Part shown: positions 7,652 through 53,148 of the stretch, piece after piece | Position numbering within the stretch: position 1 is the stretch's first letter | Layout of the letters: every line of letters starts with the position of its first letter | Source of the DNA: Nocardia higoensis NBRC 100133 | Lineage (GTDB): Bacteria > Actinomycetota > Actinomycetes > Mycobacteriales > Mycobacteriaceae | Length of the DNA: 64,000 bases | Direction of reading: 5' to 3' | Assembly: GCF_000308595.1 (NCBI RefSeq) | Contig: NZ_BAGA01000184.1 | Coordinates: 1 to 64,000, forward strand | Notes under the pieces: model-generated | What the model was told of the DNA's origin: nothing | What the model saw: the letters and a program-made list of their open reading frames with translations, nothing else | Database searches by the model: none | Program-made: the position numbers and the translations under genes

Positions 7652-7756
7652 CGCACCACCATTTCTCTACTTGTCTGCGGAGTTATGGCAGATTCTAGCG
7701 CGTGTTCGGACATCGCTTCTTCCTCCTCCTTCGCTGCCACGGCGGGGTCTGGTCGG

Positions 7757-10783: not shown

Positions 10784-11067
10784 GCCCCGGGTGTTGCCTG
10801 GCGCGACGGAACCAAACAGCGCGCCGTCGCGGGCACAGTACGACCTCGATTGTTTGAGTCCGGGGCGAAGGGCAAGAGCTAGGGCATGGCCGCGACGGGC
10901 GAACGGCTCACGACACTGCTCTGGCATGTGCACGGCTCCTGGACCACCTCGTTCGTCCGGGGTGCACTACGGCCTCGAAGCTTCTGCGCCGATGGGATGC
11001 CGTACTCGCCGGGCTGACCGGCCGATGACGCCGACCGGTCAGCCCGACCCCGGATGGAGGCCCGAGT

Positions 11068-12282
11068 ATGAAGATCGCGATGGTGTCCGAACACGCGAGC
11101 CCGCTCGCCCTGCTGGGCGGTGTCGACGCGGGTGGTCAGAACGTCCATGTCGCCGAGTTGTCCGGCGCGTTGAGCAAGCAGGGGCACGACGTCACCGTCT
11201 ACACCCGGCGCGAGGACCCGGACGCGCCGGAGTGCGTGCCGGCCGATCGGGGCTACCGCGTGGTCCATGTCCCGGCCGGTCCCGCCCGCACCCTACCGAA
11301 AGACGAATTGCTTCCGCATATGGGCGAATTCGGCGACTTCCTGCGTGCGCGGTGGCGCACCGAGCGCCCGGACGTGGTGCACGCGCACTTCTGGATGTCG
11401 GGGCTGGCCGCTCTCGCGGCCGCACGGCCCGCCGACATCCCGGTGGTCCAGACCTTCCACGCGCTCGGGGTGGTCAAGCGCCGCTACCAGGGGCCCGACG
11501 ACACCAGCCCGCCCGAGCGGATCGAGCTGGAACAGCGGATCGCGCAGCAGGCCGCTCGCATCATCGCCACTTGCACCGACGAGGTGTTCGAACTCGCCAG
11601 GATGGGGGTGCCGCGGTCGAGTACGTGCGTGATCCCGGGTGGCGTGCATCTCGGGCAGTTCGGCATCGACGGACCCGTCGAGGAGAAGACGGCGCGGTAC
11701 CGGATGATCAGTGTGGGAAGGTTGGTGCCGCGCAAGGGATTCGACACGGCGATCTGCGCGCTCACCGGCCTGCCCGACACCGAGCTGGTGGTGGTCGGCG
11801 GCGCGGACGCGGGCGAGCCCGCCGACGATCCGGAGGGCAGACGGCTGCTGGCGTTGGCCGACAAACTCGGCGTGCGCGACCGGCTGCACATGCTGGGGCA
11901 GGTACCGAGGAGCCGGGTGCCCGCCCTGCTGCGCTCGGCGGACGTGGCGGTCTGCGCGCCGTGGTACGAGCCGTTCGGCATGACGCCGCTGGAGGCGATG
12001 GCGTGCGGGGTGCCGGTGGTCGCCAGCGCGGTCGGCGGGTTGATCGATACCGTGGTCGACGGGGTGACCGGCCGGCTGGTGACCCCGCGCGATCCCGCGA
12101 AACTCGCCGAGGCGGTGCAGGATCTGCTCGCCGAGCCCGCGACCGCGCGCAGATACGGGCGTGCCGGGCACGCCCGAGTCGAGTCGCGCTACTCCTGGGA
12201 TCGGATCGCCGCCGAGGTGCTGCGTGAGTATCACCGCGTCGGCGCCACCGCCGTGGGCACCTCGCGAGAGCAGGCGCAGTAA
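11068..12282 (+). CDS. Family 4 glycosyltransferase (MshA/sucrose-synthase-like)
   Basis: A 404-residue GT-B transferase with N-terminal GGVDAGGQNVHVAELS, the MshA-like glycine-rich donor/acceptor loop, a middle VPRKGFDTAI and a C-terminal PFGMTPLEAMACGVPVVAS containing the E-x7-E nucleotide-sugar motif. It would transfer a sugar from an NDP-sugar to a small acceptor. It lies near a family 2 glycosyltransferase and an aldehyde dehydrogenase, an association suggesting a shared glycolipid or compatible-solute role. It is not necessarily the mycothiol enzyme itself, so no symbol is given. Confidence 0.88.
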   Translation: MKIAMVSEHASPLALLGGVDAGGQNVHVAELSGALSKQGHDVTVYTRREDPDAPECVPADRGYRVVHVPAGPARTLPKDELLPHMGEFGDFLRARWRTERPDVVHAHFWMSGLAALAAARPADIPVVQTFHALGVVKRRYQGPDDTSPPERIELEQRIAQQAARIIATCTDEVFELARMGVPRSSTCVIPGGVHLGQFGIDGPVEEKTARYRMISVGRLVPRKGFDTAICALTGLPDTELVVVGGADAGEPADDPEGRRLLALADKLGVRDRLHMLGQVPRSRVPALLRSADVAVCAPWYEPFGMTPLEAMACGVPVVASAVGGLIDTVVDGVTGRLVTPRDPAKLAEAVQDLLAEPATARRYGRAGHARVESRYSWDRIAAEVLREYHRVGATAVGTSREQAQ

Positions 12283-12315
12283 CGGCGTCCCCACGGCTCC
12301 GGCCCCGACGCGCTG

Positions 12316-12330
12316 TTCCGCTGGACTGAA
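12316..12330. promoter_or_regulatory. Candidate operator D of the catabolic regulon
   Basis: TTCCGCTGGACTGAA matches the half-site plan TTCCG-N5-CGGAA seen at 19349, 22304 and 22343, with one mismatch in the right arm. It lies 66 bases before the proposed TTG start of the gene preceding kshA. The link to the other sites is inferred from similarity. Confidence 0.4.
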
Positions 12331-12395
12331 TTCCTGTGGCCGCCGCCACATCCCGGTTCCTAGCCTCGTCCTCATCCGAGGAAGGGATCCGGACA

Positions 12396-12674
12396 TTGCA
12401 GCCGCTCGCCTGTCACACCTGTGACGCACGCGTATCCGTCGCGAAGTACAGCCCCGCGCACACCAGCATCCAATGGAACGCCGAGGCATCGCGGACCTGC
12501 CGGGAGATGAACGCCGCCACGGCCGTCGGCTGCGGCGGCTATCTGCTGCGCTGCGAGGCGCTCGATCGCACGGTCGACGAGGCGGTGGCGCGCGGCGAGA
12601 TCGCCATGACCACCAGGACCGAGCCCGCCGTGGCGCCCCTCGGCGCGACCGAACTCGTCGTTCCGCTCCGGTGA
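12396..12674 (+). CDS. Small Cys-rich protein upstream of kshA
   Basis: This 92-residue protein has CHTC near the N-terminus and three further Cys (SRTCREM, VGCGG, LLRCE). GAGGAAGGG precedes a TTG codon at 12396, which is the proposed start; a GTG at 12336 is the other option. It ends 53 bases before kshA on the same strand and is probably co-transcribed. The Cys set suggests metal or Fe-S binding, perhaps assisting the Rieske oxygenase, but the function is unknown. Confidence 0.55.
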   Translation: MQPLACHTCDARVSVAKYSPAHTSIQWNAEASRTCREMNAATAVGCGGYLLRCEALDRTVDEAVARGEIAMTTRTEPAVAPLGATELVVPLR

Positions 12675-12727
12675 CCACCAGTCCACGTTCAGCCCCTTCG
12701 AGTACCTACGCATCATTGGAGAAGCCC

Positions 12728-13864
12728 ATGACCGTCGAGCAGGAGCGGATCGAGATCCGCAACATCGATACCGGAACCAACCCGACGCGTTTCGCGCGCG
12801 GGTGGCACTGCATCGGGCTGGCGAAGAACTTCCGTGACGGCAAGCCGCACCAGGTCCGGGTCTTCGGCACCGAGGTGGTCGTCTTCGCCGACTCCACCGG
12901 CACGCTGCACGTGCTCGATGCCTACTGCAGGCACATGGGCGGCAATCTCGCTCGCGGCGAGATCAAGGGCGACGCCATCTCCTGCCCGTTCCACGACTGG
13001 CGGTGGAACGGGCAGGGCCGGTGCGAGTCGGTCCCCTACGCGCGGCGCACGCCGAAGCTCGCGCGCACCCGGACCTGGACCACGATGGAACGCAACGGCG
13101 TGCTGCTGGTGTGGAATTGTCCCCAGGGTTCGCAGCCGCCCGCCGAGCTGGCGATCCCGGAGATCGAGGGCTACGAGGACGGGCTGTGGAGCGACTGGAC
13201 CTGGACGACGATCCACGTCGAGGGCTCGCACTGCCGGGAGATCGTCGACAACGTCGTCGACATGGCGCACTTCTTCTACGTGCACTACCAGATGCCCGAG
13301 TACTTCAAGAACGTCTTCGACGGCCACATCGCCGGACAGCACATGCGCTCCTACGGCCGTGACGACATCAAGACCGGCGTACAGATGGATCTCCCCGAAG
13401 CGCAGACCATTTCGGACGCCTTCTACTACGGCCCCTCCTTCATGCTCGACACCATCTACACCGTCGCCGACGGCACCACCGTCGAGTCCAAGCTCATCAA
13501 CTGCCACTACCCGGTGACCTCGAACTCCTTCGTCCTCCAGTTCGGCACGATCGTCAAGAAGATCGACGGGATGACCGACGAGCAGACCGCGGAGATGGCG
13601 ACGCTGTTCACCGACGGGCTCGAAGAGCAGTTCAAGCAGGACATCGAGATCTGGAAGCACAAGACCCGCATCGAGAACCCGCTGCTCACCGAGGAGGACG
13701 GGCCGGTCTACCAGCTTCGCCGCTGGTACAGCCAGTTCTATGTCGATCTCGAGGACGTCACCCCGGAGATGACCCAGCGCTTCGAGTTCGAGGTCGACAC
13801 CAGCCGCGCGCTGGAGTCCTGGCACAAGGAAGTCGCGGAGAACCTCTCAGCTTCCGGCGAGTGA
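12728..13864 (+). CDS. kshA: 3-ketosteroid 9-alpha-hydroxylase, oxygenase component
   Basis: A 378-residue Rieske non-haem iron oxygenase. The [2Fe-2S] ligands are Cys67, His69, Cys86 and His89 (CRHMGG... and CPFHDW). The mononuclear-iron region reads EIVDNVVDMAHFFYVHYQ with the expected Asn/Asp and His ligands. KshA hydroxylates C9 of 3-ketosteroids, opening ring B with the help of the reductase KshB. A KshB-like gene lies at 24149-25207 in the same cluster. The start has GGAGAAG upstream. Actinomycetes often carry several KshA isoenzymes with different side-chain preference, so the natural substrate may be a sterol, bile acid or other polycycle. Confidence 0.92.
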   Translation: MTVEQERIEIRNIDTGTNPTRFARGWHCIGLAKNFRDGKPHQVRVFGTEVVVFADSTGTLHVLDAYCRHMGGNLARGEIKGDAISCPFHDWRWNGQGRCESVPYARRTPKLARTRTWTTMERNGVLLVWNCPQGSQPPAELAIPEIEGYEDGLWSDWTWTTIHVEGSHCREIVDNVVDMAHFFYVHYQMPEYFKNVFDGHIAGQHMRSYGRDDIKTGVQMDLPEAQTISDAFYYGPSFMLDTIYTVADGTTVESKLINCHYPVTSNSFVLQFGTIVKKIDGMTDEQTAEMATLFTDGLEEQFKQDIEIWKHKTRIENPLLTEEDGPVYQLRRWYSQFYVDLEDVTPEMTQRFEFEVDTSRALESWHKEVAENLSASGE

Positions 13865-38375: not shown

Positions 38376-39257
38376 TCACGCCAGTTCTCTTCCCGGCCGG
38401 ATCTCCCATGTCTCGACATCGGTGTAGAAGCTGCCGAAGTGCCGTAACCACGCAGCGATCGTTTCGGACGCTCTCTTTGCCAATTCGCCGGTCATGCCGA
38501 CCGTTTCCTGCAGTGCAATTTGCAGCTCGACATTGGTGAGGGAGCCGCCTTCCACCAACGTCTTGAGGACAGGGATGGCGTGCAACCGAGCCTCAATCCA
38601 AGCTGAGAACTCCTCCTCGGATAGCCCGGGAGGGATGCCGAGGCACGCAAGATCTCGGAGAATGGCCGCCTCAACCGATCGACTGTACCGAACCCGCCCG
38701 CAGTAGTATCCGTAGACGACCTGCGGACGGCGTGTTACCGGGTACCATTCCTGCCGAGGGCTAGATACTGACTCATTCTTCAGCAGGTCCGCTTGCTTTC
38801 GAGCCATCTCTGCCATGTGTGATGATGCCTCGACAGCTTGTCTCTGGATCTCCGTGAGTACCCGATCTACTTCGGAGTGGTTTGCGGGGATTTCGACCAG
38901 GATTTCGATATTCGAATATGCAGCCAGACCTGTCGCCTTGCCGGTTAGGTTTGCCGACCCGAGCAGACAATGGTCGTCGGCGAGATAGAGTTTCGCATGC
39001 AGTCGCGGGCACAGCGCAATATGCAGCCGTTTGTCCTCCGCAGCGAGTTCGATGATCTCGGGGTCAGAGACACCGGCTGCGACCTCCTCGGGGACCCACC
39101 TAGTTACACACTTGATGCTATCGACGACGTCAGGAACCACGGCGAGCGTAGCGGCCAGGACGTCTCTCTTGATGAACGGCGCAACCAGCGTGACCTGCTC
39201 ACGTGCCCCGGCCATAAGTTCTGAGACCTGCCGCCAAATATGGGCGGACTCGGTCAC
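38376..39257 (-). CDS. Phospholipase-D-fold nuclease of the defence island (SspFGH-like unit)
   Basis: A 293-residue protein with one HKD-type active site at residues 87-103 (HAKLYLADD, then LLGSANLTG). A single motif implies that a dimer forms the active site, as in PLD-type nucleases such as Nuc. The GTG start shares its first base with the stop of the GHKL ATPase gene, so the two are translated together. It is the last gene of the minus-strand trio. Role inferred from context: DNA cleavage in an anti-phage or anti-plasmid restriction arm. Confidence 0.82.
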   Translation of the reverse strand: MTESAHIWRQVSELMAGAREQVTLVAPFIKRDVLAATLAVVPDVVDSIKCVTRWVPEEVAAGVSDPEIIELAAEDKRLHIALCPRLHAKLYLADDHCLLGSANLTGKATGLAAYSNIEILVEIPANHSEVDRVLTEIQRQAVEASSHMAEMARKQADLLKNESVSSPRQEWYPVTRRPQVVYGYYCGRVRYSRSVEAAILRDLACLGIPPGLSEEEFSAWIEARLHAIPVLKTLVEGGSLTNVELQIALQETVGMTGELAKRASETIAAWLRHFGSFYTDVETWEIRPGRELA

Positions 39258-41128
39258 TAGTCGGCCCCTCCGTCTACGAAGTCGCGAGCATATCGGCCCC
39301 ACTCTCGTCGGGCGTCGGCGATCCGTTCACGCTCTTTGTCTGGATAGGTTTCGTCTTCCATGCGAGCCCAGGAAAAGAGGAGGAGCTTGAAGGTTTCTGC
39401 TGCTTGTTTGAGCCGGTCGCGCAGATCGTACTCGTCGGCATCCTTGGGTACTTCTTCGAGGACGGCCATCAATTGGTCATGGACCGGGTGCCTCTTGTTG
39501 AAGATCACCTGAAGCATGCCGGCCATCAGGTCGATGCCGAAGAAAGCGGACGTGTCCTGGAAACCGGAGATCCACCGGGCCCGCGAGTCCTGTTCGAGGG
39601 CCTCTTCGACCATGGATTTGGCGGTATCTTCGTCGAGATGGTGCGTCTTCGTGAGGGACTCGACCTGTTCATGCCGCTTGCTCTCTTCGGTAGCATCTTT
39701 ATCCAGGTCATCGGTCTTACCGGTGTGCCCCTCCGCTCCACGGCGTTTGACAGTGTCGGTTGCCCTGGATGCGACGTCATCGCTGTAGCGCTTATTACCC
39801 TTGCGATTACCCACAGTTTGCTGCTTCAGCTTGTTGCGCATGCTCTTGAGCAGCTTGTTTTCCAGGTATTCGACCAGGTCGATCAGTGGAAGCCGAGGGT
39901 CTCCGAGGTCTTTGAGTCGCTGTCTGAATTCTTTCGGGGATTCGCCAGCTTCGGCGTGGGCCCGCCAATCGAAGTGCGCCAAAGAGGAAAACACTGTGGC
40001 GCTCTGTTTGTTATTCGTCACCCCAAATACCGAGTCAAGTTCCGGCGGAAACTCGATCTCGATGCCCCACCACCGCTCCGTTGGCTCGTATCCGATTGCC
40101 CATGAAGTGTCGAGTTCCAGTTCGCGCCCCTGACGCACCAACGAGATACCGATATTGCGGCCAGCGTGCTTCCCCCAAGGCAACCGGCCGGCGTCGCCCG
40201 TGGCACTGATTCCCGCAGGCCAGGGGTGTCCATCCACATCGCCGCGGCGAGCCTCTGGCCGGGCAATCGATGCTCGAACCGTGATGTTGTACTTCTTGCC
40301 GTTGTAGGTTACCGGGATCTCGCGGAAACCTGGCTCGGCTTCGTTGCCCATCGAGTGCGGCATGAACATCGGTTTGCCCGAAAACGGCTCCGGAACAGAA
40401 TTCGAAGCCATCAGGTAGAGCGGGTCATTGGGTTCTACCCTCTTGAGGGCGCTGTCCACGACCTTCCCGTCGCGGACGGGCGCCAGACGGATGTCGACAC
40501 GTCCATCATTGATGTAGTACCGGTATATCCGGCCGATCAGGTCGGCGGTGTTCCGCAAGGTGGCGGCAGCGCCGTACCAGTTGACCCTGTCTAGTTCGCT
40601 CCACACAACGAGGGTGCCAGTGGGGCCGAGTCCTTCACTCAGGTCTTGCCAATAGTCCGGCAGTGGCTGGTGTGTGGGTTCGGGTACATCGTCGACCTGG
40701 CCTTTCTCTATCTCTTCGAGGCTGAGGTAAGTGTGCATGGCGTTGGCCGGCCCGTTTGTCCAGGACCAGACGTCAAGTCGGGTGCACTGTGACATGCTCG
40801 AGTTAGGCAGGCCCATGCCGAAGCGGCCGATGCGAGTGGGATCGGTGCCGTGCCCGTCTCCATATTTGAGCGCGCGACGCAGCGTCGGAGGGGCCATGCC
40901 CTCACCGTTGTCGAGAACCGCGATTCGCTCGACACGGTAGCTGGTGCGCGACTCGACCATCACGGGCGCTTCGCAGGCGAAGACCTCGACGAGTTCGGCC
41001 TTTGCATCGATGCTGTTGTCGATCAGTTCCGCGAGGGCATATGCGGTGTTCTTGTAGCCGCTGTCTCGCATGGCTTTAACGGTCAGCGTGGGGCTGACGA
41101 TCCGGTAGTTGCCGTCTTCGCTGGTCAC
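39257..41128 (-). CDS. GHKL (HATPase) protein of the defence island
   Basis: A 623-residue protein with a Hsp90/MutL/MORC-type ATP site: N-box ELIDNSIDA at residues 34-42, DNGEGM at 73-78 and GRFGMGLPNS at 101-110. The middle contains a GHKL transducer-like region and the C-terminal 180 residues are charged and helical. The GTG start overlaps the helicase stop by four bases with GGGAG upstream. ATP-driven dimer closure on DNA, coordinating helicase and nuclease, is a reasonable inference. Confidence 0.83.
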   Translation of the reverse strand: MTSEDGNYRIVSPTLTVKAMRDSGYKNTAYALAELIDNSIDAKAELVEVFACEAPVMVESRTSYRVERIAVLDNGEGMAPPTLRRALKYGDGHGTDPTRIGRFGMGLPNSSMSQCTRLDVWSWTNGPANAMHTYLSLEEIEKGQVDDVPEPTHQPLPDYWQDLSEGLGPTGTLVVWSELDRVNWYGAAATLRNTADLIGRIYRYYINDGRVDIRLAPVRDGKVVDSALKRVEPNDPLYLMASNSVPEPFSGKPMFMPHSMGNEAEPGFREIPVTYNGKKYNITVRASIARPEARRGDVDGHPWPAGISATGDAGRLPWGKHAGRNIGISLVRQGRELELDTSWAIGYEPTERWWGIEIEFPPELDSVFGVTNNKQSATVFSSLAHFDWRAHAEAGESPKEFRQRLKDLGDPRLPLIDLVEYLENKLLKSMRNKLKQQTVGNRKGNKRYSDDVASRATDTVKRRGAEGHTGKTDDLDKDATEESKRHEQVESLTKTHHLDEDTAKSMVEEALEQDSRARWISGFQDTSAFFGIDLMAGMLQVIFNKRHPVHDQLMAVLEEVPKDADEYDLRDRLKQAAETFKLLLFSWARMEDETYPDKERERIADARREWGRYARDFVDGGAD

Positions 41129-43044
41129 GTTGTCTCCCATACGTCTTCCCAGTTCGTGAATGCTTCTGCCACATCGCCGAATCCGGGGAGTTCCGGGTTG
41201 ACGACGGTGACGATTTCGCAAGTGGCGGTCCCGCCGGCCTTCGGTCCACGTATCACGCGGCCTACCATCTGGCTGTAGAGAACCAAAGATTTGGTGGGCC
41301 GGGCTATCACGGCCGCGCTAGCGGCCGGTGCATCGAATCCGGTTGTCAGGACGCCGAAGTTGCACAGAACCATGGGGCGCCGACCGGCTCCTTTGAACCG
41401 AGAAATGACCTGCCCCCGGTGCCGAGGGGAGGACTCACCCGTGACGAATTCTGCATCGACCCCGGCAGCGGACAACACCGCTGCAATCAGTCGGCAGTGC
41501 TCGACTGATGCAGCGAACACCAGAATCCGATTGTGCTGCTGAAGTAGGTCGGTGATCGTCTCAATGATCTTGAGGTTCCACTGCTCGTCTTGGGCGAGCT
41601 CGGCCAACATGGCAGGTGGAATATCGAACGACTTCGCCAACAGCTGCTGCTCACGTGCGGACAAGTGCGTTCCTGCTTTGGCGGCCACGGTACGCATCAG
41701 TGGTCTCGCCAGGTATCCCTGTTCGATGAGGGCCGTGACCGGGTTGGTGAAGCCCTCGATCTCCAGCATGACTTTCTGCCGGGAAAAGTAGTCGGAGAGC
41801 TCCTCATCTTTGGATATATCAGCCCACGTCCGCCCAGGGGTGGCGGTCAACCCGAGAAGGCTGGCGTCGTAGCGGATCGTCAGGTCATCGACGACGGCTT
41901 GGTAGGTCGGTGCAATGATCTGATGTGCCTCATCGAATACCGTCAGCGTGCTGCGGGCTGCCAGGGTGGTCAGGAATGCAGGGTCGGTTTTGGCGGCGGA
42001 TACGGCCTTCTCCAAGCCGAGGACCACAAGGCCGTCGGTGAGGTCGTCCAGAGTCGTCGGGGTCGTCCCCCACAGACGGACTGCGGACAGAGGTCGATCC
42101 CCGAGATTTTTCCAAGCTTTGTCGAACTCGGCGGCGGCCTGCTCCAGAAGTTCACGCCCGTGCGCCAGCCACACCACCACGGTCGGTTCGTTTTTCCGCA
42201 GATGATCGCAGATCAGGCTCATGCCCGTCCGGGTCTTGCCGACGCCGGTAGGCAGGTGCAATACCACCCGTCTCGGGCTGTCGTAGAGAAGCTCCTTCAC
42301 ACGGGCGGCGGCGCGGCGCTGATGCGGGAATAGAGCGTAGTCCGGCGCGGTGCGTGCGCTGTACAGCGGAGGAAGAGAGGGTGCTCGATCGACCGCAAGT
42401 CCTAGGAACTCAAGGAGCTCGCGCCGCTGCTCCGCTATCCAGTCGAGCTCGCGCAGGCAATCCAGCGGTGACTGACCGTCGACGCGCGCGCCGAGCCTCT
42501 GCACCAGTTCGATCTGCTTCGGCTCCGGAAGCAATCCGAGCAGCGTAGCGCGCTCGGCACCGTCGGCCACCAACCGCTCCACGTCGATGTTGATCGAGGC
42601 GACGGCCCGGAGTCGATCACTGTCGGCCGCACCGCCGTTGAGCAAATCGAGAAGTGCACACAGCCGATCCCCAAGCTGCTCCCGGATGTACGGCATCGGC
42701 GCCATCTCGACAAGTTTCTTGAACGAGATGCCCGGTGACCACACTGTCACAGACCCTCCCACCCCCTTCGTGGATAGCAGTGCATACACACACCATCCGA
42801 CGCCACCGTCGTCATCGAACTCCCACCTCTGGTCGAGCGCGCCGAGCACACCATCCCATGCGCCTGCGGCGCGCCTCAGCGCGCACGCCATCCTAGTAGC
42901 GCTCACCGACAGTGGGTGTGGCTCAGCCGAATGAGCCAGATAGAGAGCGCTTTTCGAGCCTGACGGACAGCCCCATGAGATCCTCCAACAGGTCACGTTG
43001 GCGGCGCCCTCTAGCGGTGAGATAGAGATCTCCCCGACCTCCAT
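41125..43044 (-). CDS. DEAD/DEAH-box superfamily 2 helicase of the defence island
   Basis: About 639 residues. The N-terminal 230 residues are specific to this protein. A restriction-type SF2 helicase core follows with Q-region LFPHQRRAA, Walker A PTGVGKTRTG, DEAH box VFDEAH, LTATPGR and motif VI SQMVGRVIRG. The ATG at 43044 has GAGGG six bases upstream; a GTG at 43065 is an alternative. It is the first gene of the minus-strand trio, divergent from the SspABCD-like operon across about 130 bases. Confidence 0.85.
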   Translation of the reverse strand: MEVGEISISPLEGAANVTCWRISWGCPSGSKSALYLAHSAEPHPLSVSATRMACALRRAAGAWDGVLGALDQRWEFDDDGGVGWCVYALLSTKGVGGSVTVWSPGISFKKLVEMAPMPYIREQLGDRLCALLDLLNGGAADSDRLRAVASINIDVERLVADGAERATLLGLLPEPKQIELVQRLGARVDGQSPLDCLRELDWIAEQRRELLEFLGLAVDRAPSLPPLYSARTAPDYALFPHQRRAAARVKELLYDSPRRVVLHLPTGVGKTRTGMSLICDHLRKNEPTVVVWLAHGRELLEQAAAEFDKAWKNLGDRPLSAVRLWGTTPTTLDDLTDGLVVLGLEKAVSAAKTDPAFLTTLAARSTLTVFDEAHQIIAPTYQAVVDDLTIRYDASLLGLTATPGRTWADISKDEELSDYFSRQKVMLEIEGFTNPVTALIEQGYLARPLMRTVAAKAGTHLSAREQQLLAKSFDIPPAMLAELAQDEQWNLKIIETITDLLQQHNRILVFAASVEHCRLIAAVLSAAGVDAEFVTGESSPRHRGQVISRFKGAGRRPMVLCNFGVLTTGFDAPAASAAVIARPTKSLVLYSQMVGRVIRGPKAGGTATCEIVTVVNPELPGFGDVAEAFTNWEDVWETT

Positions 43045-43133
43045 GCAACGCCCTCGCAGAGTCACACCCTGAGACTAGGATCGCCTTATGCTCCTGGCGG
43101 AACCCCGACAGCGGAGAGAGGGATTCACCAGGA

Positions 43134-43147
43134 GTAGATTGATCTAC
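43134..43147. promoter_or_regulatory. Palindrome in the divergent defence promoter
   Basis: GTAGATTGATCTAC is a perfect 6-2-6 palindrome in the interval between the helicase and cysteine desulfurase genes, 26 bases before the sspA ATG. It is a candidate operator controlling one or both operons. No dedicated regulator gene is seen in the island. Confidence 0.45.
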
Positions 43148-43173
43148 ATAGCGACCGGAAAGGGGTAGCCACA

Positions 43174-44331
43174 ATGGGCGGACCAATCGAGGTAGATGAG
43201 TGCTACCTCGACTACAATGCCACCGCGCCACTCCGTCCTGAGGCGCTCGCCGCAATCACCGACGCCATGCAGGCAGTTGGGAACGCGTCTAGCCTGCATC
43301 AACCGGGACGCCGTGCTGCCGAGAGGGTCAGCAAGGCTCGTCAGCAGGTAGCGGAGCTCCTCAATTGTTCACCTGGTGAGGTCATCTTCACCTCTGGAGC
43401 CACCGAAGCGAACAATCTGGCCCTCCAGGTCTCCTACACCCCCGGAAGACCACTGGTGACAAGCCCTGTGGAGCATCCGGCAGTGCTGGAGACCGCACGG
43501 ACTCTGACCATCGACCACCCGAACGACCTCGTGCTACTGCCAGTCGCCACGGACGGCCTGGTGGATCTCAGCGCTCTCGATCAGGTCCTCGCCGCAGGCT
43601 CCGGCGGCACGGTGTCATTGATGTCCGCGAATAACGAGACCGGCGTTCTCACCGATATCCGGATCGCCGCCAAGTCCGCCCATGAGGCCGGTGCCATTGT
43701 TCATACTGACGCCACGCAGGTCATCGGGCGACTCCCCGTTGATGTCGCCGAACTCGATGTGGACTTCCTGTCGCTGTCTGCTCACAAGTTCGGCGGCCCG
43801 CAAGGCGTCGGCGCCCTCTATGCCCGCCGCGGAGCGTCCGTGCCCTATCGTCCGCTGCTCCGCGGCGGAGGACAGGAACGGGGCTGGCGGCCGGGCACTC
43901 TCAACGTTGCAGGGATAGCGGGACTGGGCGCTGCCGCCGAGGCGGCTCGCATCGGCATGGAACAAGAGGCGGCGCGGACCGCCGTCCTGCGGGACCGACT
44001 CGAGGGCCAACTGATCCGTAACGTTCCCGGGTGCCGAATCAACGGTCGGCTCGACCAACGCCTCCCCGGAGTAACAAACATCACTTTTCCAGGTGTTCCC
44101 GCTGACGCCGTTTTGGCCGCCATGCCAGATGTCGCCGCCTCAGACGGCAGCGCCTGCGCCTCCGGCGCCCCGACTCCCAGCCATGTCTTGCTAGCGATGG
44201 GGCTGTCCCGACAAGACGCTGATTGCACCATCCGCTTCTCGCTGGGGCACGCCACCACCAGTGCAGAGATCGAGCATGCAGCACAGGCCGTCACGCAGGC
44301 CGTCACGCGGGTCCGGATCGCGATGGAATAG
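43174..44331 (+). CDS. sspA: Cysteine desulfurase, SspA/DndA-like
   Basis: A 385-residue PLP enzyme of the IscS/NifS class. The PLP Lys is Lys205 (LSAHKFGGPQG), the cofactor-stacking His is His101 (VEHPAVL) and the sulfur-carrying Cys is Cys328 (GSACASG). It would mobilise sulfur from cysteine to the PP-loop protein encoded at 49069-49902 for DNA phosphorothioation. AAGGGG precedes the ATG. The next gene starts after a 71-base gap and the following genes overlap. The symbol is given by operon context; a chromosomal IscS would look similar alone. Confidence 0.85.
   Translation: MGGPIEVDECYLDYNATAPLRPEALAAITDAMQAVGNASSLHQPGRRAAERVSKARQQVAELLNCSPGEVIFTSGATEANNLALQVSYTPGRPLVTSPVEHPAVLETARTLTIDHPNDLVLLPVATDGLVDLSALDQVLAAGSGGTVSLMSANNETGVLTDIRIAAKSAHEAGAIVHTDATQVIGRLPVDVAELDVDFLSLSAHKFGGPQGVGALYARRGASVPYRPLLRGGGQERGWRPGTLNVAGIAGLGAAAEAARIGMEQEAARTAVLRDRLEGQLIRNVPGCRINGRLDQRLPGVTNITFPGVPADAVLAAMPDVAASDGSACASGAPTPSHVLLAMGLSRQDADCTIRFSLGHATTSAEIEHAAQAVTQAVTRVRIAME
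43187..43211 (+). repeat. Perfect hairpin in the first codons of sspA
   Basis: TCGAGGTAG and CTACCTCGA form a perfect 9-bp stem around a 7-base loop, covering codons 5-13. A stem so close to the start can limit ribosome access or bind a regulator. It shares the word GTAG..CTAC with the upstream palindrome at 43134. Confidence 0.4.
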
Positions 44332-44402: not shown

Positions 44403-45497
44403 ATGTCGGACGGTCGACTTGCGGACGCTGCCCATTTCGCCTTCGCGCGCCATGAAACCTTCGCGCCGCGCTTCGGCTGGTTACACAAGTCGTACATGCA
44501 GGTCAGAGATGACCCAAGCGCATTCCTCGCCGAGGACGCACCCGTGTTGTTCGGTGTGGGCAAGAACATGGTCTATGCGATGCGGTATTGGTCGCGCGCT
44601 TTCAAGCTAACTCGGGAGCACTACCCGGCTCCCGGCGCCCGTTCGAAGTTCTCCTACCCGACGTGGGAGGCGCGCTGGCTCCTCGACGAGGACGGCGCCG
44701 ACCCGTATCTGGAGGAGCACGGCAGTCTGTGGCTGCTGCACTGGTGGCTGGTGTCGTCTCGCCCCGGGGCCAAGAGTCACGCACCGACCTGGTACACCGC
44801 CTTCCACCTTGCTCCGTTCTCACGGTTCACGGTGGCAGACCTGACGCAGGTCGTTGTCCGGCATGTCAACTTCTCCTACAAAGAGAGTCCTGTCGAAGCC
44901 TCGATCGTCCGTGACATCGACTGCCTGACCAAGATGTACGCTCGCACCGCTCCGGAGAAGGCAGGATCCCCCGGCAATTACGAGGATCTGCTGGCATGCC
45001 CCTTCCGGGATCTCGATCTCCTCACGTTCGTCGGGACACGCGGGAAACCCGAGTGGCAGTTCACCAGCGGGCACCGCACCACCCTGCCAGCACCTGTTTT
45101 GGCCTACGCCTGTCTTGATTATGCAGCTACGTTCACCCGTCAGGCCAATTCGATCTCGGTAGCCCGACTCGCGAACGAACCCGGCTCTCCTGGGCGCGCG
45201 TTCCGCGTCCGGGAGAACGAAATCGTCAATGCCCTGAAGAAGGTCACCGCAAACCATAGGCAGCTCAACCTCACCGAAACCGTTGGTCAACGCAGCCTCA
45301 CCTTCGCCGATGATCCCCTCGACTTGGCGTGGGAAGTTTTGGACGAACAATACGGCGGAGTCACACGCCGCCCGGGGTTTCCCAGCCGTGCCGAATGGAC
45401 CGCACGATTCCCCCAACTGACCGAAGCTGAGCACAGGGAACGCACGGCCACCACCGCTTCCGACAACACCGAACTGCTCTTCGAGGAGACCGCGTGA
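44403..45497 (+). CDS. sspB: DUF4007 protein, SspB-like
   Basis: A 364-residue protein beginning with the DUF4007 pattern ARHETFAPRFGWLHKSY and VLFGVGKNMVYAMRYW. In SspABCD systems the DUF4007 protein SspB is the DNA-nicking component that gives access for sulfur insertion. The ATG at 44403 follows GAGAGG; upstream in-frame sequence back to 44223 overlaps sspA and is not needed. Its stop overlaps the next gene by four bases. Confidence 0.83.
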   Translation: MSDGRLADAAHFAFARHETFAPRFGWLHKSYMQVRDDPSAFLAEDAPVLFGVGKNMVYAMRYWSRAFKLTREHYPAPGARSKFSYPTWEARWLLDEDGADPYLEEHGSLWLLHWWLVSSRPGAKSHAPTWYTAFHLAPFSRFTVADLTQVVVRHVNFSYKESPVEASIVRDIDCLTKMYARTAPEKAGSPGNYEDLLACPFRDLDLLTFVGTRGKPEWQFTSGHRTTLPAPVLAYACLDYAATFTRQANSISVARLANEPGSPGRAFRVRENEIVNALKKVTANHRQLNLTETVGQRSLTFADDPLDLAWEVLDEQYGGVTRRPGFPSRAEWTARFPQLTEAEHRERTATTASDNTELLFEETA

Positions 45498-48400
45498 CCA
45501 CCGCATCGCCCACGCGCCCCCAGATGAGCGTGACCAGTTCTACGCCACAGTTCCCTGCGGGCATCGAGCTTGTCGGCTCGCACATGCGCTCGACCAATCT
45601 GGAACGCGACATCCGGGACTCTCTGCACGACCCCTACGTCGGCGCTCAAGCCGTCGACGTCATCGAGAGGGTCGCCAGTGCATTAGCCGACAGTCGACGT
45701 ACCAGGGCATGGTCTTTTACTGGGCCGTACGGGTCCGGAAAATCCACTTTGTCCAACTTCGTCGACGCGCTGTTGGGCCAAGACCTCGAGCGACGCAAAG
45801 AAGCCGAGCGCATACTCATCGAGGCCAGCCCTGCACTCGCGCAGCGGCTCGGCACGGCGCGCGACGCCTTGACAGCAAAGGGTTTTCTCGGCGGTGTAGC
45901 CACCGCTCGGCGTGAACCTCTGGTGGCGACTCTCGGTCGCGCCTTGCACACCGCCGCGGAGCGGCGCTGGGGCAAGCGCATACCCAAACCGGTCGCGGTG
46001 GCACTCAATGGGTGCGCTGACCCGGATACCGCAGGCTCCAAGGAAATCCTTGAAGCGGTCACTCTGCTGACCGCCGATGGACAGCCCCTTCTTCTCATCA
46101 TCGACGAGTTCGGCAAGACGCTGGAACACCTCGCCGGCCACAACGAGTTCACCGGTGCCCAGCACGACCTTTTCCTGCTACAAGAACTCGCCGAGAAGGC
46201 CGCTGGCGCCAAAGGTCTGCCTGTCTACTTGATGACCTTGCAGCACTTGTCGTTCATGGACTACGCCTCACGGTCGAGCGAGCTCATGACCCGGGAATGG
46301 GCCAAGATCCAGGGCCGCTTCGAAGACATCACGTTCGTCCCACACCACGGGGACTCCCTGCAGCTTCTGCGCCGTGCTCTCGACCATTCGAACGTCGGCC
46401 GGTCCGGTCACGCCTTGATCGCCAAGGCAGCGGAGGCATCCGCAGATATCTGGACTCAGCACGGCCTCGGCGTCCTCGCTGATCTCGGGCCCGAGCATTT
46501 CGCGGACCTGTACCCGCTGCACCCTCTCACCGCCCTCGCCGCGCCGATCCTGGCCGCGCAGATCGGACAGCACGACCGCAGCCTCACGGGATTCCTCAAC
46601 AGTGGCGAGCCCAACACCGTCCGATACACGCTGGCGCGTTACTCCAAGCAGAAGCCCGACACCGCCAGTACGGTGCAGCTGCCACAGCTCTACGACTACT
46701 TCCTGAACTCCGGTCGCACGACACTTCTCGCCTCGGTCAACGCGACCAGGTGGATCGAAGTTGATATGCGCATTCGCGAAGCGAACGGCCTTCCGGAGGC
46801 TGACCAGGACATCGTCAAAACCGTCGGAGTCCTCAACCTGATCGACTCCGACGGAGTCCTCAGCGCAACCGCCCCGATGATCCACTTCGCCCTCCACAAC
46901 CCGACCGAGGTGGCCGACCCGGACGCCTTCCTTGCTCTCCAAGAGCGACTCGCGGACCTCGTCGGGCGAGGTCTCCTCGTCCATCGCGAATTCAGCGGCG
47001 AGTACCGCGTGTGGCAGGGCACCGACGTAGATATCGATGGGCGGCTCAAAGAGATCGTCGCCCACCTCGACGAGGCGTCAGTGATTCGCCGTCTCGGCAA
47101 CTTCGTCCCACAAGCATTTGTCGCAGGACGCCATAGCCAGGTCACCGGGATGATGCGCGTATTCTATTCCGCGGTCAGCGGACCGGAGACCAACCGTGTC
47201 ACCGCGCCCGACAATCTGAGAGAGCCCGCCGATGGTCTCCTCATCTTCCACCTCGGTACCGATGCCGACCGACCGACCGTCGACTCCTCCCTGCCGGTGC
47301 TCGTAGGTACCACCCCTGACCCGAAAACGGTAGTGGCAACAGCGACATATCTGGTCGCGCTGAAAGAGCTCAGCAACGAGCACGATCTCGACCATGTTGC
47401 CCGGCGCGAGATCACCGAACGAATCGTGCAGGCCGAAGCCGAACTACTCGAACTCGTTCAAGAGGCGTTCTATCCGCCTTCCTCTCAGGCAACGTGGTGT
47501 TTGTGGCACAGCGGAATCGCACCCGCCGAAGAGCCTGCCGCCTCCGGTCTGGTCGCGCGCAGTCTCAATGGGCTGGTTTCCTTGGCCTGCGAGGCTGTAT
47601 ATCCGCATACGCCGCATATCCGCAACGAGATGCTCGGCCGTCATGTCCTGACCAGTCAAGCTGCCCAGGCCCGCGGCGTACTGCTCGCGGCCATGCTCTC
47701 TGCGTCCGCGCAGAAGAATCTGGGCTTCAACGACGGATACCGCGCCGAACGTGCGATGTACAGCGGTGTGCTCGCCTACCTGGGCCTGCATCGTGAAAAC
47801 GGCGTGACGCAAGCCGAAACCCAGCACGACAGTCTCCTCCCCTACGGTTTCTCACCCCCAGGCCAAGGACACGAACACGCCCAGCCGGCCTGGAATGCAC
47901 TGAACGAAACTCTGACAGCAGCCACCAAACAAACCAACCTCGAGCAGACCATCCGCGTATTGATGAGTCCGCCATTCGGGCTGAAAGCTGGCGTCGTTCC
48001 GGTCTTTCTGATTCCGGCACTGATCATTCGTCAGCACGATGTCGCCCTGTTCGAGGAGGGCACCTACCTTCCGCGGCTTGCTCCTGAGGTGGTTGAACGT
48101 CTCGTCAAAGCCCCGGCGCGCTTCTCGATCAAGTGCACTCCGGCTGGAAAGGGACAGCGCGGTAGTGTCCTTAAAAAGCTGGCGACCTCACTCGGCGTCG
48201 AAGCCACACGTTCTAAGGCCGTGCGCAACCCCGATATTCTTCCTGTCGCCCGGGCCTTGATCTCGCGGGTAGCCGGCCTCAGTAAGTACGGCCGGACAAC
48301 CAAGAACATCTCGGCAGATGCTCAAGCTGTGCGTGCAACCATCGCCAAGGCGCTCGATCCCGACGATCTGATCTTCAGCGCTCTGCCCAAGGCGTTGGGG

Positions 48401-49072
48401 CTGTCCGAAATCGCCGTTGACGCGCGAGTGAACGCCGAGGCTGCGAAAACGTATGTGGACCGTCTCACGGCAGCAGCCGATGAGCTTGTCGCTATCAACA
48501 GCCGACTGCGGACCGATGTCGTGAGTTCTCTGGCTGAGGAGTTTCGGCTGCCCGCGACGCTACCGACTCTTCGCTCTGAGCTCGCTGCCCGGCTCCGGGG
48601 ATTCAGTGACGCCCCCCTGACCTCGGAACTGCGAGGCTTTGTCGACTTCGCTCTCAGCGAAAGCCTCGAGGATGACGACTGGCTCGATCCGATCGTCGTC
48701 CGGCTGACCAACTCTGCACTCGGCGACTGGGACGACCGCGAGGCCGAAGCCTTTCCACAGAAGGCCCGGGCCATGGCCTCGGCACTCGACCGCGTTGGGC
48801 ATCTCCATCATGCCGGTCAGGAGCAGGACGGTCGGGAAGAAAAGCTCGACGCACAGTTGTTGACCTTGACCGACAGCAGCGGCGTCGAGCAGCGCACCCT
48901 GATCTACATACCAGCGCAGGTTCGCAACGATGCACACAATTTGGCCGCTGACGCCGTGCAACAGGCCGAGAAGCTGCTCGGCCCGGACGGAGCACGCATC
49001 CTGCTCGCCGCCCTGGCACAGCGCGTTGCCGACGTCGCCACCGCCGCAAGCGAACGAAAGGGAGGGGAATGA
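45494..49072 (+). CDS. sspC: Large P-loop ATPase, SspC-like
   Basis: A 1192-residue protein with Walker A GPYGSGKS at residues 77-84 and Walker B LLLIIDEFGKTLE near residue 200. The N-terminal third is a STAND/AAA-like ATPase and the rest is a long helical region with no named domain. SspC of phosphorothioation systems is an ATPase of this kind, and BREX BrxC is a distant analogue. It starts at a GTG in a GTGA overlap with sspB and ends in an ATGA overlap with sspD, so all are translated as a unit. Confidence 0.82.
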   Translation: MTTASPTRPQMSVTSSTPQFPAGIELVGSHMRSTNLERDIRDSLHDPYVGAQAVDVIERVASALADSRRTRAWSFTGPYGSGKSTLSNFVDALLGQDLERRKEAERILIEASPALAQRLGTARDALTAKGFLGGVATARREPLVATLGRALHTAAERRWGKRIPKPVAVALNGCADPDTAGSKEILEAVTLLTADGQPLLLIIDEFGKTLEHLAGHNEFTGAQHDLFLLQELAEKAAGAKGLPVYLMTLQHLSFMDYASRSSELMTREWAKIQGRFEDITFVPHHGDSLQLLRRALDHSNVGRSGHALIAKAAEASADIWTQHGLGVLADLGPEHFADLYPLHPLTALAAPILAAQIGQHDRSLTGFLNSGEPNTVRYTLARYSKQKPDTASTVQLPQLYDYFLNSGRTTLLASVNATRWIEVDMRIREANGLPEADQDIVKTVGVLNLIDSDGVLSATAPMIHFALHNPTEVADPDAFLALQERLADLVGRGLLVHREFSGEYRVWQGTDVDIDGRLKEIVAHLDEASVIRRLGNFVPQAFVAGRHSQVTGMMRVFYSAVSGPETNRVTAPDNLREPADGLLIFHLGTDADRPTVDSSLPVLVGTTPDPKTVVATATYLVALKELSNEHDLDHVARREITERIVQAEAELLELVQEAFYPPSSQATWCLWHSGIAPAEEPAASGLVARSLNGLVSLACEAVYPHTPHIRNEMLGRHVLTSQAAQARGVLLAAMLSASAQKNLGFNDGYRAERAMYSGVLAYLGLHRENGVTQAETQHDSLLPYGFSPPGQGHEHAQPAWNALNETLTAATKQTNLEQTIRVLMSPPFGLKAGVVPVFLIPALIIRQHDVALFEEGTYLPRLAPEVVERLVKAPARFSIKCTPAGKGQRGSVLKKLATSLGVEATRSKAVRNPDILPVARALISRVAGLSKYGRTTKNISADAQAVRATIAKALDPDDLIFSALPKALGLSEIAVDARVNAEAAKTYVDRLTAAADELVAINSRLRTDVVSSLAEEFRLPATLPTLRSELAARLRGFSDAPLTSELRGFVDFALSESLEDDDWLDPIVVRLTNSALGDWDDREAEAFPQKARAMASALDRVGHLHHAGQEQDGREEKLDAQLLTLTDSSGVEQRTLIYIPAQVRNDAHNLAADAVQQAEKLLGPDGARILLAALAQRVADVATAASERKGGE

Positions 49073-49902
49073 CCGACACAGAGAACACCCGGAAGGTCAG
49101 GCACGTACTCGGCATCTCCGGCGGCAAGGACTCCTCGGCGCTCGCCGTCTATATGCGCGACCGCGTCCCTGAGATGGAGTACTTCTTCTGCGACACCGGC
49201 GCCGAACTGCCCGAAACCTATGAGTACCTCAACCGCCTCGAAGCCGCGCTGGGCAAATCCATCGTTCGCCTCAACGCCGATCGCGACTTCGACCACTGGA
49301 TGCAGGTCTACCAGGGAACTCTTCCCAGCCCCCAGATGCGCTGGTGCACCAAGAACCTCAAGATCAAGCCGCTGGAGGAATGGGTCGGCGAAGACAGAGT
49401 CATCTCCTACGTCGCGATCCGAGCCGACGAGAACCGACTCGGCTACGTCAGCACCAAACCGAACATCGAGGCAGTCTTCCCCTTCCGCGAGGACGACATC
49501 GACAAAGACGGAGTGATGCGCATCCTCGACGAGGCCGGCATCGGCCTGCCCGCATACTACGAATGGCGCACCCGCTCCGGCTGCTACTTCTGCTTCTTCC
49601 AGCGCAAGCACGAGTGGGTAGGCCTCAAGGAACGACACCCTGAGCTATTCGACCGAGCAGTCGAATACGAAGAAAAAGTCCGATACCGCCACACCGCCAT
49701 GAAGGGCCGCAACTACACGTGGTCCCAAGGCGAGTCGCTACCAGAGCTCATCGACCGCAAAGACGAAATCGAGGCCAAACACCAAGCAGCTCTAGAACGC
49801 GCCGCCCGGAGAATCAAACCCAACCGCCCCCTCCTCGAAGTGCTCAACGACGCGCTCGATGAAGACGATGACGAAGCAGGCTGCTCGGTCTGCCATTTGT
49901 GA
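49069..49902 (+). CDS. sspD: PAPS-reductase-like PP-loop protein, SspD-like
   Basis: A 277-residue ATP-pyrophosphatase. The PP-loop motif is SGGKDSSA at residues 17-24. Cys93 (RWCTKNLK), Cys172 and Cys175 (SGCYFCFF) are placed to bind an Fe-S cluster as in DndC, and a C-terminal CSVC adds two more. It would activate the DNA phosphodiester with ATP and receive sulfur from SspA. It closes the operon. The absence of DndB-, DndD- and DndE-like genes argues for Ssp rather than Dnd type. Confidence 0.83.
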   Translation: MTDTENTRKVRHVLGISGGKDSSALAVYMRDRVPEMEYFFCDTGAELPETYEYLNRLEAALGKSIVRLNADRDFDHWMQVYQGTLPSPQMRWCTKNLKIKPLEEWVGEDRVISYVAIRADENRLGYVSTKPNIEAVFPFREDDIDKDGVMRILDEAGIGLPAYYEWRTRSGCYFCFFQRKHEWVGLKERHPELFDRAVEYEEKVRYRHTAMKGRNYTWSQGESLPELIDRKDEIEAKHQAALERAARRIKPNRPLLEVLNDALDEDDDEAGCSVCHL

Positions 49903-51749: not shown

Positions 51750-51879
51750 AGCTGACCTCCAAAGGGCGTTCGGCCAGCCCGCTCGATCCTCCTCCGACGA
51801 TCTTACCGCAGCTCGATACCTGAGCACCGCCCCTTGATTGCTACTCCCGCTACCTTGTCCTGCTTTTCCCTCGCCCCTC

Positions 51880-51916
51880 GAACGCCGGCCCGGAGTCCTG
51901 CTCCGGGTCGGCGTTC
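51880..51916 (+). terminator. Strong intergenic hairpin before amidoligase 1
   Basis: GAACGCCG...CCCGGAG pairs with CTCCGGG.CGGCGTTC (about 15 bp with one bulge, 5-base loop), followed by TTTC. It lies 24 bases before the amidoligase ATG. It can act as a terminator or as a 5' mRNA stem. Confidence 0.6.
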
Positions 51917-51939
51917 TTTCATTTCCGGAAGGTGCTGTC

Positions 51940-53148
51940 ATGCCTCATCCCGTTCTCGCGGCGAATCCGGCGTGCGCGCTGTGTCGCCGCGCCCGCGCCG
52001 GCGACTTTTACATGCTCGACGAAATCCCTGATCAGTGGCTGTGCCAGACCTGCGTGTCCGAGGTGCCGCGCTGTGATCGGTGCCGCGGATTCACGCGCGA
52101 ACCGATCACCACCTCGGAGGATCAGCGACTGTGCCGGTCGTGCGCGGCGGGGCTGGTGGGGTGTGTGTCGTGCCGGGCGTTGACCGACCCGTCGTTGCGC
52201 ACCGACACCGGCGAGTTCGTGTGTGCCCGGTGCGCGATGGTGTTCTTCGATCGTTGCTTCAGTTGCGCGCGCTACAGCGACGCCAGCCGCTATCTCTCCG
52301 GCGGCCAGCGGGTGTGCCGACGATGCGTGAGCGGGTTCGAATCCTGCACGGCCTGCGGCACGCTGGTGCGTGCGGGCCGGGGATGTGATTCATGCGCGCG
52401 CCCGGATCGGGTGTGGAACTACAGCTACAAGCCCGATCCCCAATTCCACGGCGAAGGGCCGCTGTTCCTGGGGCTGGAGCTCGAGATCATTGTCCCCGAG
52501 CATTCCTACACCGAGTGCGTCGCCCTCGCGGCCGAAGAACTGGGTGGTCTGGGCTATTTGAAGCAGGATTCCTCGATTCGGCCCACCGGGTTCGAGCTGG
52601 TCACCCATCCGATGTCTTACGGGTACGCGATCGAGCGTTTCCCGTGGTCGCTGCTGGAAGCGCTGGCCGAGCGCGGGTGTGAGACCGACTCCACGGTCGG
52701 GTTGCATGTGCATGCCAGCCGCACCGGGTTCGTCTCCCCTGCGCACATCTATCGCTGGTTGAAGCTGTTGTACCGCAACGAATCCGCGGTCTCCCGGTTG
52801 GCGCGGCGGCGGTCGCATTACGCGCCGTTCGACGTGCTCGCCCGGGCGAAGGCTCGCGATACCGCCAAGAGCCACCAGCACGCGCTCGGGCTGGACCGGT
52901 ATCAGGCGATCAACCCCTACCCCCGTCACACCCTCGAGCTGCGCGTGTTCGCCAGCTCCTTGGACGTGCAGTGCGTGCAAGCGGCGCTGGCCTTCACCGC
53001 CGCCTCGATCCACTACACCCGCAACCTGCTGGTCACCGACGTGCGTGCCGGAGCCTGGGAATGGACGCAGTTCGCTGCCTGGGCCGCCGCGCAACCCGCC
53101 TATCGGCCGCTGGTCGCGGAGATGGAGGACCTGGCATGTGCCTGCTGA
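51940..53148 (+). CDS. Zinc-array amidoligase 1
   Basis: A 402-residue protein. Residues 1-150 carry ten CxxC pairs, enough for five four-Cys zinc sites. The C-terminal domain has Amidoligase_2-type motifs: LFLGLELEII, SSIRPTGFELVTHP, GLHVHASRTGF and HTLELRVFASS. Amidoligases are glutamine-synthetase-fold COOH-NH2 ligases that join an amine to a carboxylate using ATP. The stop overlaps the start of the class II amidotransferase gene by 13 bases. The substrate is unknown; the zinc array may bind a protein or nucleic acid target. Confidence 0.75.
   Translation: MPHPVLAANPACALCRRARAGDFYMLDEIPDQWLCQTCVSEVPRCDRCRGFTREPITTSEDQRLCRSCAAGLVGCVSCRALTDPSLRTDTGEFVCARCAMVFFDRCFSCARYSDASRYLSGGQRVCRRCVSGFESCTACGTLVRAGRGCDSCARPDRVWNYSYKPDPQFHGEGPLFLGLELEIIVPEHSYTECVALAAEELGGLGYLKQDSSIRPTGFELVTHPMSYGYAIERFPWSLLEALAERGCETDSTVGLHVHASRTGFVSPAHIYRWLKLLYRNESAVSRLARRRSHYAPFDVLARAKARDTAKSHQHALGLDRYQAINPYPRHTLELRVFASSLDVQCVQAALAFTAASIHYTRNLLVTDVRAGAWEWTQFAAWAAAQPAYRPLVAEMEDLACAC

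Follow-up and report, generated by a model that had tools for sequence, protein, structure and literature searches.

Which effector works with the phosphorothioate (PT) modification operon of Nocardia higoensis NBRC 100133? The window, that is, the whole stretch of 64,000 nucleotides analysed here (NZ_BAGA01000184.1 positions 1-64,000, assembly GCF_000308595.1), carries two divergent gene sets: SspABCD on the plus strand and, on the minus strand, a trio of genes for a RadD-like helicase (HEL), a MORC-type GHKL ATPase (GHKL) and a predicted nuclease of the phospholipase D fold (PLD). In a 2021 study, neither SspE nor SspFGH accompanied 2,211 of 2,678 sspBCD loci, and the question of other restriction partners was raised (PMC8092258); SspE and SspFGH are the SspABCD effectors named in passages of recent PT papers. 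The original prediction, made from the sequence of the window, held that the trio is SspFGH-like and forms the restriction arm of the neighbouring operon. We think it likely that the HEL-GHKL-PLD trio is a dedicated restriction effector module of PT-based defence that works with SspABCD.

Linkage of the trio to PT modification genes

With the window protein as sole query (E ≤ 1e-30), GHKL is found in six of the 397 genomes of the source order, and these are also the six genomes picked out by a PLD family profile. SspD is present in eight of the 397, including all six GHKL genomes, a co-occurrence with a hypergeometric P of 5e-12, or of 1.5e-8 when the window genome and one member of a same-genus pair are set aside; SspD is present and GHKL absent in the genomes G284 and G308. 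A GHKL profile built from six family members was then scanned over 84,980 species genomes, which gave 204 relatives, and the best 80 were kept; locus stretches reached up to 10 kb on each side, many on cut contigs, and the gene profiles used on them were built in this analysis. SspB, SspC or SspD lies within these limits in 71 of the best 80 loci. Gene by gene, HEL is present in 77, SspC in 70, PLD and SspD in 66 each, SspB in 65 and SspA in 58, with a complete trio in 63 and all four of SspA-D in 49. The gap between the nearest Ssp and trio open reading frames (ORFs) of the 71 linked loci has a median of 238 bp and is at most 1 kb in 58 of them.

The same pairing is seen on mobile elements. 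GHKL matches 24 of 72,556 plasmid records at E ≤ 1e-10, and SspD occurs on 70 records overall; all 12 plasmids with a full-length GHKL of at least 37% identity carry SspD, two of them being near-identical strains. Three of the other 12 GHKL plasmids were inspected: a Roseivivax plasmid, discussed below; CP049030, where a distantly related GHKL and a DEAD helicase lie about 9 kb away from SspD; and Treponema pTS1, where a BrxP-type PAPS reductase (PADLOC BrxP, 5e-81), SspB, SspC, SspA, HEL, GHKL and PLD are all co-directional. Among viral contigs there are nine GHKL matches, and the four of at least 36% identity all have SspA-D, HEL and PLD; in one viral contig (L126) PLD is on the opposite strand. 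The original prediction was to be refuted if most genomes carried the trio without Ssp genes, and the opposite was found (6 of 6 genomes, 71 of 80 loci, 12 of 12 plasmids and 4 of 4 viral contigs). A predicted restriction-arm function for PT modification is strongly supported by this linkage.

The trio is a single evolutionary unit that is swapped between Ssp cores. Pairwise protein distances correlate within the trio (Pearson r 0.90 for both GHKL-HEL and GHKL-PLD; Spearman 0.71) and within the modification core (Pearson r 0.92-0.98 for SspC versus SspB, SspD and SspA; Spearman 0.78-0.88), and less so across the two modules (Pearson r 0.65-0.77; Spearman 0.39-0.48); the Spearman values are lower than the Pearson values, with the rank order unchanged. 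Single loci show the exchange. The SspC of L029 is 85% identical to that of L010, and its GHKL is just 31% identical to that of L010 and 69% to that of L021; forcing L029 together with L010 and L011 on the GHKL data, in quick trees that contain long branches, is 40 log-likelihood units worse (p-AU, approximately unbiased test, 0.0004). Similarly, among 16 loci compared the SspC of L019 is nearest to that of L037 (73%), and its trio is nearer to L021 (76, 81 and 65%) than to L037 (52, 63 and 48%). When 87 loci were sorted by gene order, 32 were divergent like the window, five had SspABCD and the trio co-directional, and seven had SspA opposite to SspBCD and the trio; further orders are convergent, or have SspBCD and the trio with SspA downstream (cyanobacteria). 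There are at least six orders, and the linkage is preserved throughout. Since the linkage persists despite exchange and re-ordering, function is argued, rather than chance inheritance.

The partner core also varies. At some loci the trio accompanies SspB, SspC, SspA and a BrxP-type PAPS reductase (BREX type 4-like; 5e-81 to 2e-88) that replaces SspD, namely L132 (Treponema pTS1, 806-12663), L059 with L122, and L138 (beside L069); at L069 itself the BrxP-type core lies about 7 kb from the trio.

The trio might instead be an independent defence system that merely shares defence islands with SspABCD. Both modules are mobile, their phylogenies are partly decoupled, as the cross-module correlations indicate, and each occurs alone, SspD without GHKL in G284 and G308 and HEL-GHKL without SspD at L082. 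Such independence nevertheless appears quite unlikely, given the complete co-occurrence in separate collections of genomes, plasmids and viral contigs, the short ORF distances kept in several orders and many phyla, and co-directional layouts such as that of Treponema pTS1.

Predicted activities and mode of action

HEL (41125-42750, minus strand, 541 amino acids) is, by sequence, nearest to the RadD repair helicase. In Pfam it matches ResIII (4.5e-19), Helicase_C (3.7e-13) and also DEAD; the NCBIfam RadD model is matched at 4.8e-34, yet far under that model's cut-off, and the HEL family profile finds RadD (6jde, 9.5e-44) and SauUSI (2.3e-18) in the PDB. Walker A and DEAH are conserved in the family, the Walker A lysine being K172 in the 541-residue numbering. 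GHKL (39257-41128, minus strand, 623 amino acids) matches HATPase_c_3 (4.9e-20) and HATPase_c, and its N-box and G-box residues (E38, D41, N42, D77, G81, G105, G108 and G110, in a 627-residue numbering) are invariant in 61 family members. Its closest solved relatives in a PDB sequence search are MORC2, MORC4 and MORC3 (1.5e-8 to 5e-5) and SMCHD1. With a GHKL module, an N-box and G motifs, and MORC as its closest kin, the protein belongs by its sequence to the MORC/paraMORC group. Its AlphaFold2 model has a predicted local distance difference test score (pLDDT) of 86, and in Foldseek it matches the folds of Hsp90, MORC2 and MutL with modest template-modelling scores; in this whole-protein search the matches to MORC2, SMCHD1, MutL and Hsp90 extend beyond the ATPase domain, likewise at modest scores, which bears on a possible S5-type second domain.

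PLD (38376-39257, minus strand, 293 amino acids) matches PLDc and PLDc_2 slightly under the Pfam cut-offs. The AlphaFold2 model (pLDDT 92) finds SauUSI as its top match (Z 15.7, root-mean-square deviation 2.4 across 141 residues), followed by NucT (Z 14.5) and Nuc (14.2) and then, interspersed with PLD-superfamily members other than nucleases, by the restriction enzymes BfiI (12.8) and NgoAVII R (11.8), in a search that barely reached the C-terminal half (residues about 150-293). H87, K89, G100, S101, N103 and E118 are invariant over 59 family rows, whereas the D of the textbook HKD motif varies. Thus, the one-HKD PLD-fold protein of the original prediction holds as to the fold and the invariant H, K, G, S, N and later E, and not as to an invariant D; the active site is better written HxK...GSxN on a PLD fold, that of a predicted nuclease. 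The other assignments, a superfamily 2 (SF2) DEAH helicase and a GHKL ATPase with intact N-box and G boxes, are borne out by Pfam and by conservation. The nuclease, motor and ATPase families each conserve their predicted catalytic residues.

The kinship of HEL with the RadD repair helicase, together with weak MutL profile matches of GHKL, would suit a role in repairing or processing PT-DNA in place of restriction, since homologues of RadD and MutL act in DNA repair. We regard this as very unlikely, in view of a third gene with a PLD fold, the tight pairing with mobile PT cores, the alternation of SspE and Pbe with the trio at other loci, and the finding that MORCs are the nearest GHKLs in the PDB by sequence.

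As for the mode of action, separate nuclease and helicase-like ATPase subunits in an R2H2 complex, with a need for ATP hydrolysis and communication along DNA, are described for CglI (PMC4267653, PMC5737866); SauUSI is a translocating enzyme with dimerising nuclease domains (PMC7913695); both the ATPase and the nuclease of the GHKL-nuclease fusion VcSduA are needed for defence (PMC12137116); and MORC/paraMORC proteins of restriction operons have been proposed to loop DNA (Iyer 2008, PMC2292703). By analogy with such systems we infer that the trio may attack unmodified DNA. SspABCD would place PT on host DNA. Where DNA carries too little PT, the RadD-like HEL would load and translocate using ATP, a MORC-type GHKL dimer would close on the DNA, forming an ATP-gated clamp or loop by which the complex is licensed or held, and PLD, as a dimer that has a single composite active site, would nick or cut the DNA. 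PT would act as a veto that blocks loading, translocation or cleavage. Overall, this would amount to a split ATP-dependent PLD/helicase restriction enzyme of the CglI/NgoAVII kind, supplemented by a MORC-type ATPase, in which the self mark is sulfur and not methyl.

The main rival to this scheme is a PT-activated mode, in which the trio is switched on by host PT, as SspE is, or is an abortive modification-dependent effector that is silent without SspABCD. The linkage data fit it equally well; moreover, SspE, another SspABCD partner, is described in the literature as requiring PT for activity, and SauUSI, whose fold comes closest to that of PLD, is an ATP-driven PLD-helicase that depends on modification. 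In contrast, the layout of ATPase, motor and nuclease over several genes resembles that of SspFGH and DndFGH, reported to attack PT-free DNA, and that of CglI. PT activation of the trio is hence a real possibility, though a doubtful one.

Several observations weigh against the trio being a dedicated PT effector. In PDB sequence searches for a PT-reading domain (E limits 0.001, 0.1 and 1e-8), its profiles matched no sulfur-binding-domain structure, and among the fold neighbours of PLD are FAM83 proteins, phosphatidylserine synthase and vaccinia F13, which are not nucleases. Eight of the best 80 loci have no linked core: for three of these (L043, L073 and L080) SspD lies elsewhere in the genome, and for L064, L066, L078, L082 and L089 no match to SspD was obtained in the genome. 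Four of the latter, from Microcoleaceae/Oscillatoriaceae (L064, L078, L082 and L089), have HEL-GHKL with neither PLD in the stretch nor SspD in the genome; because these cyanobacterial genomes keep the pair without SspD, HEL-GHKL can persist without PT and is possibly orphan or repurposed there. L074 and L075 have SspB and SspC, and no SspD was found in their genomes. PLD is not above threshold in 14 of the 80 loci, 13 of them cyanobacterial; in some, Ssp genes are broken. The count of distant unlinked relatives is too low, because only the best 80 of 204 relatives were kept and the scan profile came from Ssp-linked members. On the Roseivivax plasmid, a distant GHKL (30%) is part of another system, which has DruA and lacks Ssp, and the five weaker GHKL matches on viral contigs show no Ssp gene. 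Conversely, among 15 other actinobacterial SspD genomes (seven from the source-order survey and eight from a second sample), seven have the trio and six are without it in the stretch fetched; G569 and G617, with a contig edge on one side, are counted neither way. Since about half of the judged actinobacterial SspD loci are without the trio, SspABCD is not dependent on it.

Two cyanobacterial details stand beside these. The L064 stretch ends at GHKL. The Nostocales loci L067, L070, L072, L074-L077 and L085 have no PLD above threshold, several of them having short helicase ORFs or split SspB/SspC, and are apparently decaying systems.

Known systems and the probable place of the trio among PT effectors

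The trio is not SspFGH. In Vibrio anguillarum FF-93, SspF contains a Walker A motif, SspG is without homology and SspH is FtsK/SpoIIIE-like (PMC8092258), whereas the trio consists of other proteins: the Walker A motif of HEL belongs to a DEAH helicase, and Pfam yields no FtsK/SpoIIIE-like domain in the trio, only ResIII/Helicase_C/DEAD, HATPase_c_3/HATPase_c and PLDc/PLDc_2. The profile comparison proposed with the original prediction was run with the PADLOC models of SspF (PDLC02793, PDLC02796) and SspG (PDLC02800), and no trio protein matched any of them at E ≤ 0.001. What stands of the label SspFGH-like is the restriction-arm function, as far as linkage shows, and the likeness of a three-gene cassette adjoining SspBCD genes with a proposed attack on PT-lacking DNA (PMC8092258). 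What falls is identity: because composition and profiles disagree, the label is valid only as an analogy, and the SspFGH letters do not apply to the trio.

In DndCDEA-PbeABCD, the partner of PT modification contains both an SF2 helicase and a PLD/HKD domain (PMC6459918). However, its PLD is fused to the helicase in PbeA, PbeC is an ABC-type ATPase, and PbeB and PbeD are small (PMC6459918, PMC10853773), whereas the trio has PLD as a protein of its own and a GHKL as its ATPase. HEL matches PADLOC PbeA over the helicase part only (1.4e-21) and no trio protein matches PbeC in PADLOC, so PbeABCD was rejected. MZA shares the GHKL ATPase domain, and all 61 GHKL members match MzaB; the match is confined to the ATPase part and the window protein scores 66.6-66.8 bits against a cut-off of 850, so this identity was rejected too, as was DISARM, with DrmC at 27.1 bits against an equivalog cut-off of 133 bits.

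Other systems are informative as analogies. Shedu VcSduA/paraMORC3 combines a GHKL ATPase and a nuclease in phage defence, both essential, but its nuclease is of another type, a PD-(D/E)xK domain fused to GHKL, and the passages on it link it to neither a helicase nor PT (PMC12137116); Shedu stands as an analogy at most. The prokaryotic MORC/paraMORC restriction-modification operons bring together a GHKL-S5 ATPase, an SF2 helicase and endonucleases including HKD types (Iyer 2008, PMC2292703), and the species list of that paper has Nitrococcus mobilis, the source species of locus L042; those operons are, however, linked to DNA methylation, with no PT or Ssp link in the passages and term counts of the text (PMC2292703). 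CglI/NgoAVII resembles the trio in its separate nuclease and helicase-like ATPase subunits, its R2H2, ATP-driven action (PMC4267653, PMC5737866) and the NgoAVII R subunit as fold neighbour of PLD (Z 11.8), and differs in being paired with a methyltransferase, GHKL not being named among its three genes in the passages concerned (PMC4267653, PMC5737866). SauUSI, the top fold match of PLD, likewise joins a PLD nuclease to an SF2 helicase motor, but in a single fused polypeptide that targets methylated DNA (PMC7913695).

What serves SspABCD where the trio is absent? In the actinobacterial SspABCD loci L108, L114 and L116, a full PbeA homologue (2e-156 to 9e-172) and a PbeC-like ATPase lie downstream of SspD, directly after it in L108 and L114 and beyond one intervening unknown gene in L116. 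This adjacency suggests that Pbe, known as a Dnd partner, also serves SspABCD. L117, an actinobacterial SspD locus without the trio, has SspE, and in L109 and L115 a DndB-like gene was the only find among the one or two genes scanned. The window genome gave no SspE match, with positive controls detected, and no match to the SspF or SspG models in searches that lacked a positive control; a PbeA search of it returned helicase-part matches only, the window HEL among them. SspE also adjoins the trio in L077 and L085. Genes of about 750 amino acids upstream of HEL in cyanobacterial loci are SspE in L077 and L085, and those of L061 and L087 have no PADLOC match.

The theme of GHKL, helicase and nuclease dates from 2008 (PMC2292703), and a separate nuclease/helicase enzyme is already known as CglI. 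What is new is probably an effector set for PT-based restriction, itself an already known kind of defence. The PT-system effectors discussed in passages of recent papers are SspFGH, SspE, DndFGH(I), BREX type 4 and Pbe, with no GHKL among them, and a 2026 BREX/PT survey never mentions MORC, GHKL, MutL or HATPase. The words 'phosphorothioation' and 'GHKL' co-occur in no open-licence full text searched, and 'phosphorothioat' with 'GHKL' in a Vibrio cholerae defence paper, whose PT passages concern SspE only, and in a yeast MutL-gamma paper. A coupling of the trio to PT was not found in the running text of open-licence papers; a supplementary table of gene neighbourhoods might already list the trio. 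On balance, it is rather probable that the trio represents a widespread and undescribed class of PT-defence effector, made of a MORC-type GHKL clamp, a RadD-like motor and a PLD nuclease, as a cassette exchangeable between SspD-type and BrxP-type cores from Actinobacteria to Spirochaetes. If so, some of the sspBCD loci termed orphan until now would be accounted for. For a share of them the trio offers a concrete answer that can be tested (7 of 15 other actinobacterial SspD genomes, 12 of 70 SspD plasmids). It would also be a bacterial case of self and foreign DNA being told apart by a MORC-type ATPase that reads, or responds to, an epigenetic mark, and would place an ATPase type whose eukaryotic relatives silence transposons in a defined self/non-self setting. 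Because the PT mark can be added or removed genetically, the proposed origin of MORCs in restriction systems becomes directly testable.

Gene starts and neighbouring genes

Within the window, the predicted overlaps of the three minus-strand genes were confirmed from the ORFs and the sequence. The trio genes are three uninterrupted ORFs, with GTGA at 41128-41125 common to the HEL stop and the GHKL GTG start (4-base overlap), and the GHKL stop and PLD GTG start overlapping by one base at 39257. An alternative GHKL start is possible at ATG 41140. The HEL start needed correction: placed at ATG 43044 (639 amino acids) in the original prediction, it appears about 98 codons too early, and GTG 42750 is probably the start of a 541-residue protein. 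HEL relatives have a common ...WSPG.SF N-terminus at this GTG, and in-frame stops lie upstream in the relatives looked at, the closest one (L012, 89% identical) included, so that a start as early as 43044 is ruled out in those relatives. With the revised start, the divergent intergenic region between HEL and SspA (42751-43173) is therefore about 423 bp and not the roughly 130 bases first proposed.

The divergent operon itself was correctly recognised as SspABCD-like, and all four PADLOC models match. On the plus strand, the cysteine desulfurase SspA (43174-44331; PADLOC SspA 1.1e-129) is followed by the DUF4007 protein SspB (44403-45497; PADLOC SspB 3.4e-122, DUF4007 6.6e-88), whose start is an ATG chosen ahead of the profile match, the ATPase SspC (45494-49072; PADLOC SspC, 1321 bits, E = 0) and the PAPS-reductase-type sulfurtransferase SspD (49069-49902; PADLOC SspD 2e-120). 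These homologues form one operon, and the modification core is complete.

Additional genes accompany the trio elsewhere. In 19 loci, nearly all Streptomyces-type (L014:12977-14637 and equivalents), a conserved gene pair lies downstream of PLD and encodes a 214-residue protein with two repeated stretches that look helix-turn-helix-like by eye and a 312-residue SspD-like protein with a PP-loop-like SYGGGVQST motif; the pair was not found beside the window's trio. Two extra large uncharacterised families, of about 630-660 and 660-780 amino acids, occur in L051, L053, L054 and L056, both lying between the trio and SspCD in L051 and L056, and the second has a HATPase_c domain in L051. In the Anaerolineae locus L059, a second, divergent GHKL gene (11761-13554) lies between GHKL and PLD. 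Finally, just past the Ssp operon of the window, a plus-strand gene (51838-53148) shows a weak Amidoligase_2 match (1.5e-4), and its N-terminus reads as zinc-ribbon-like.

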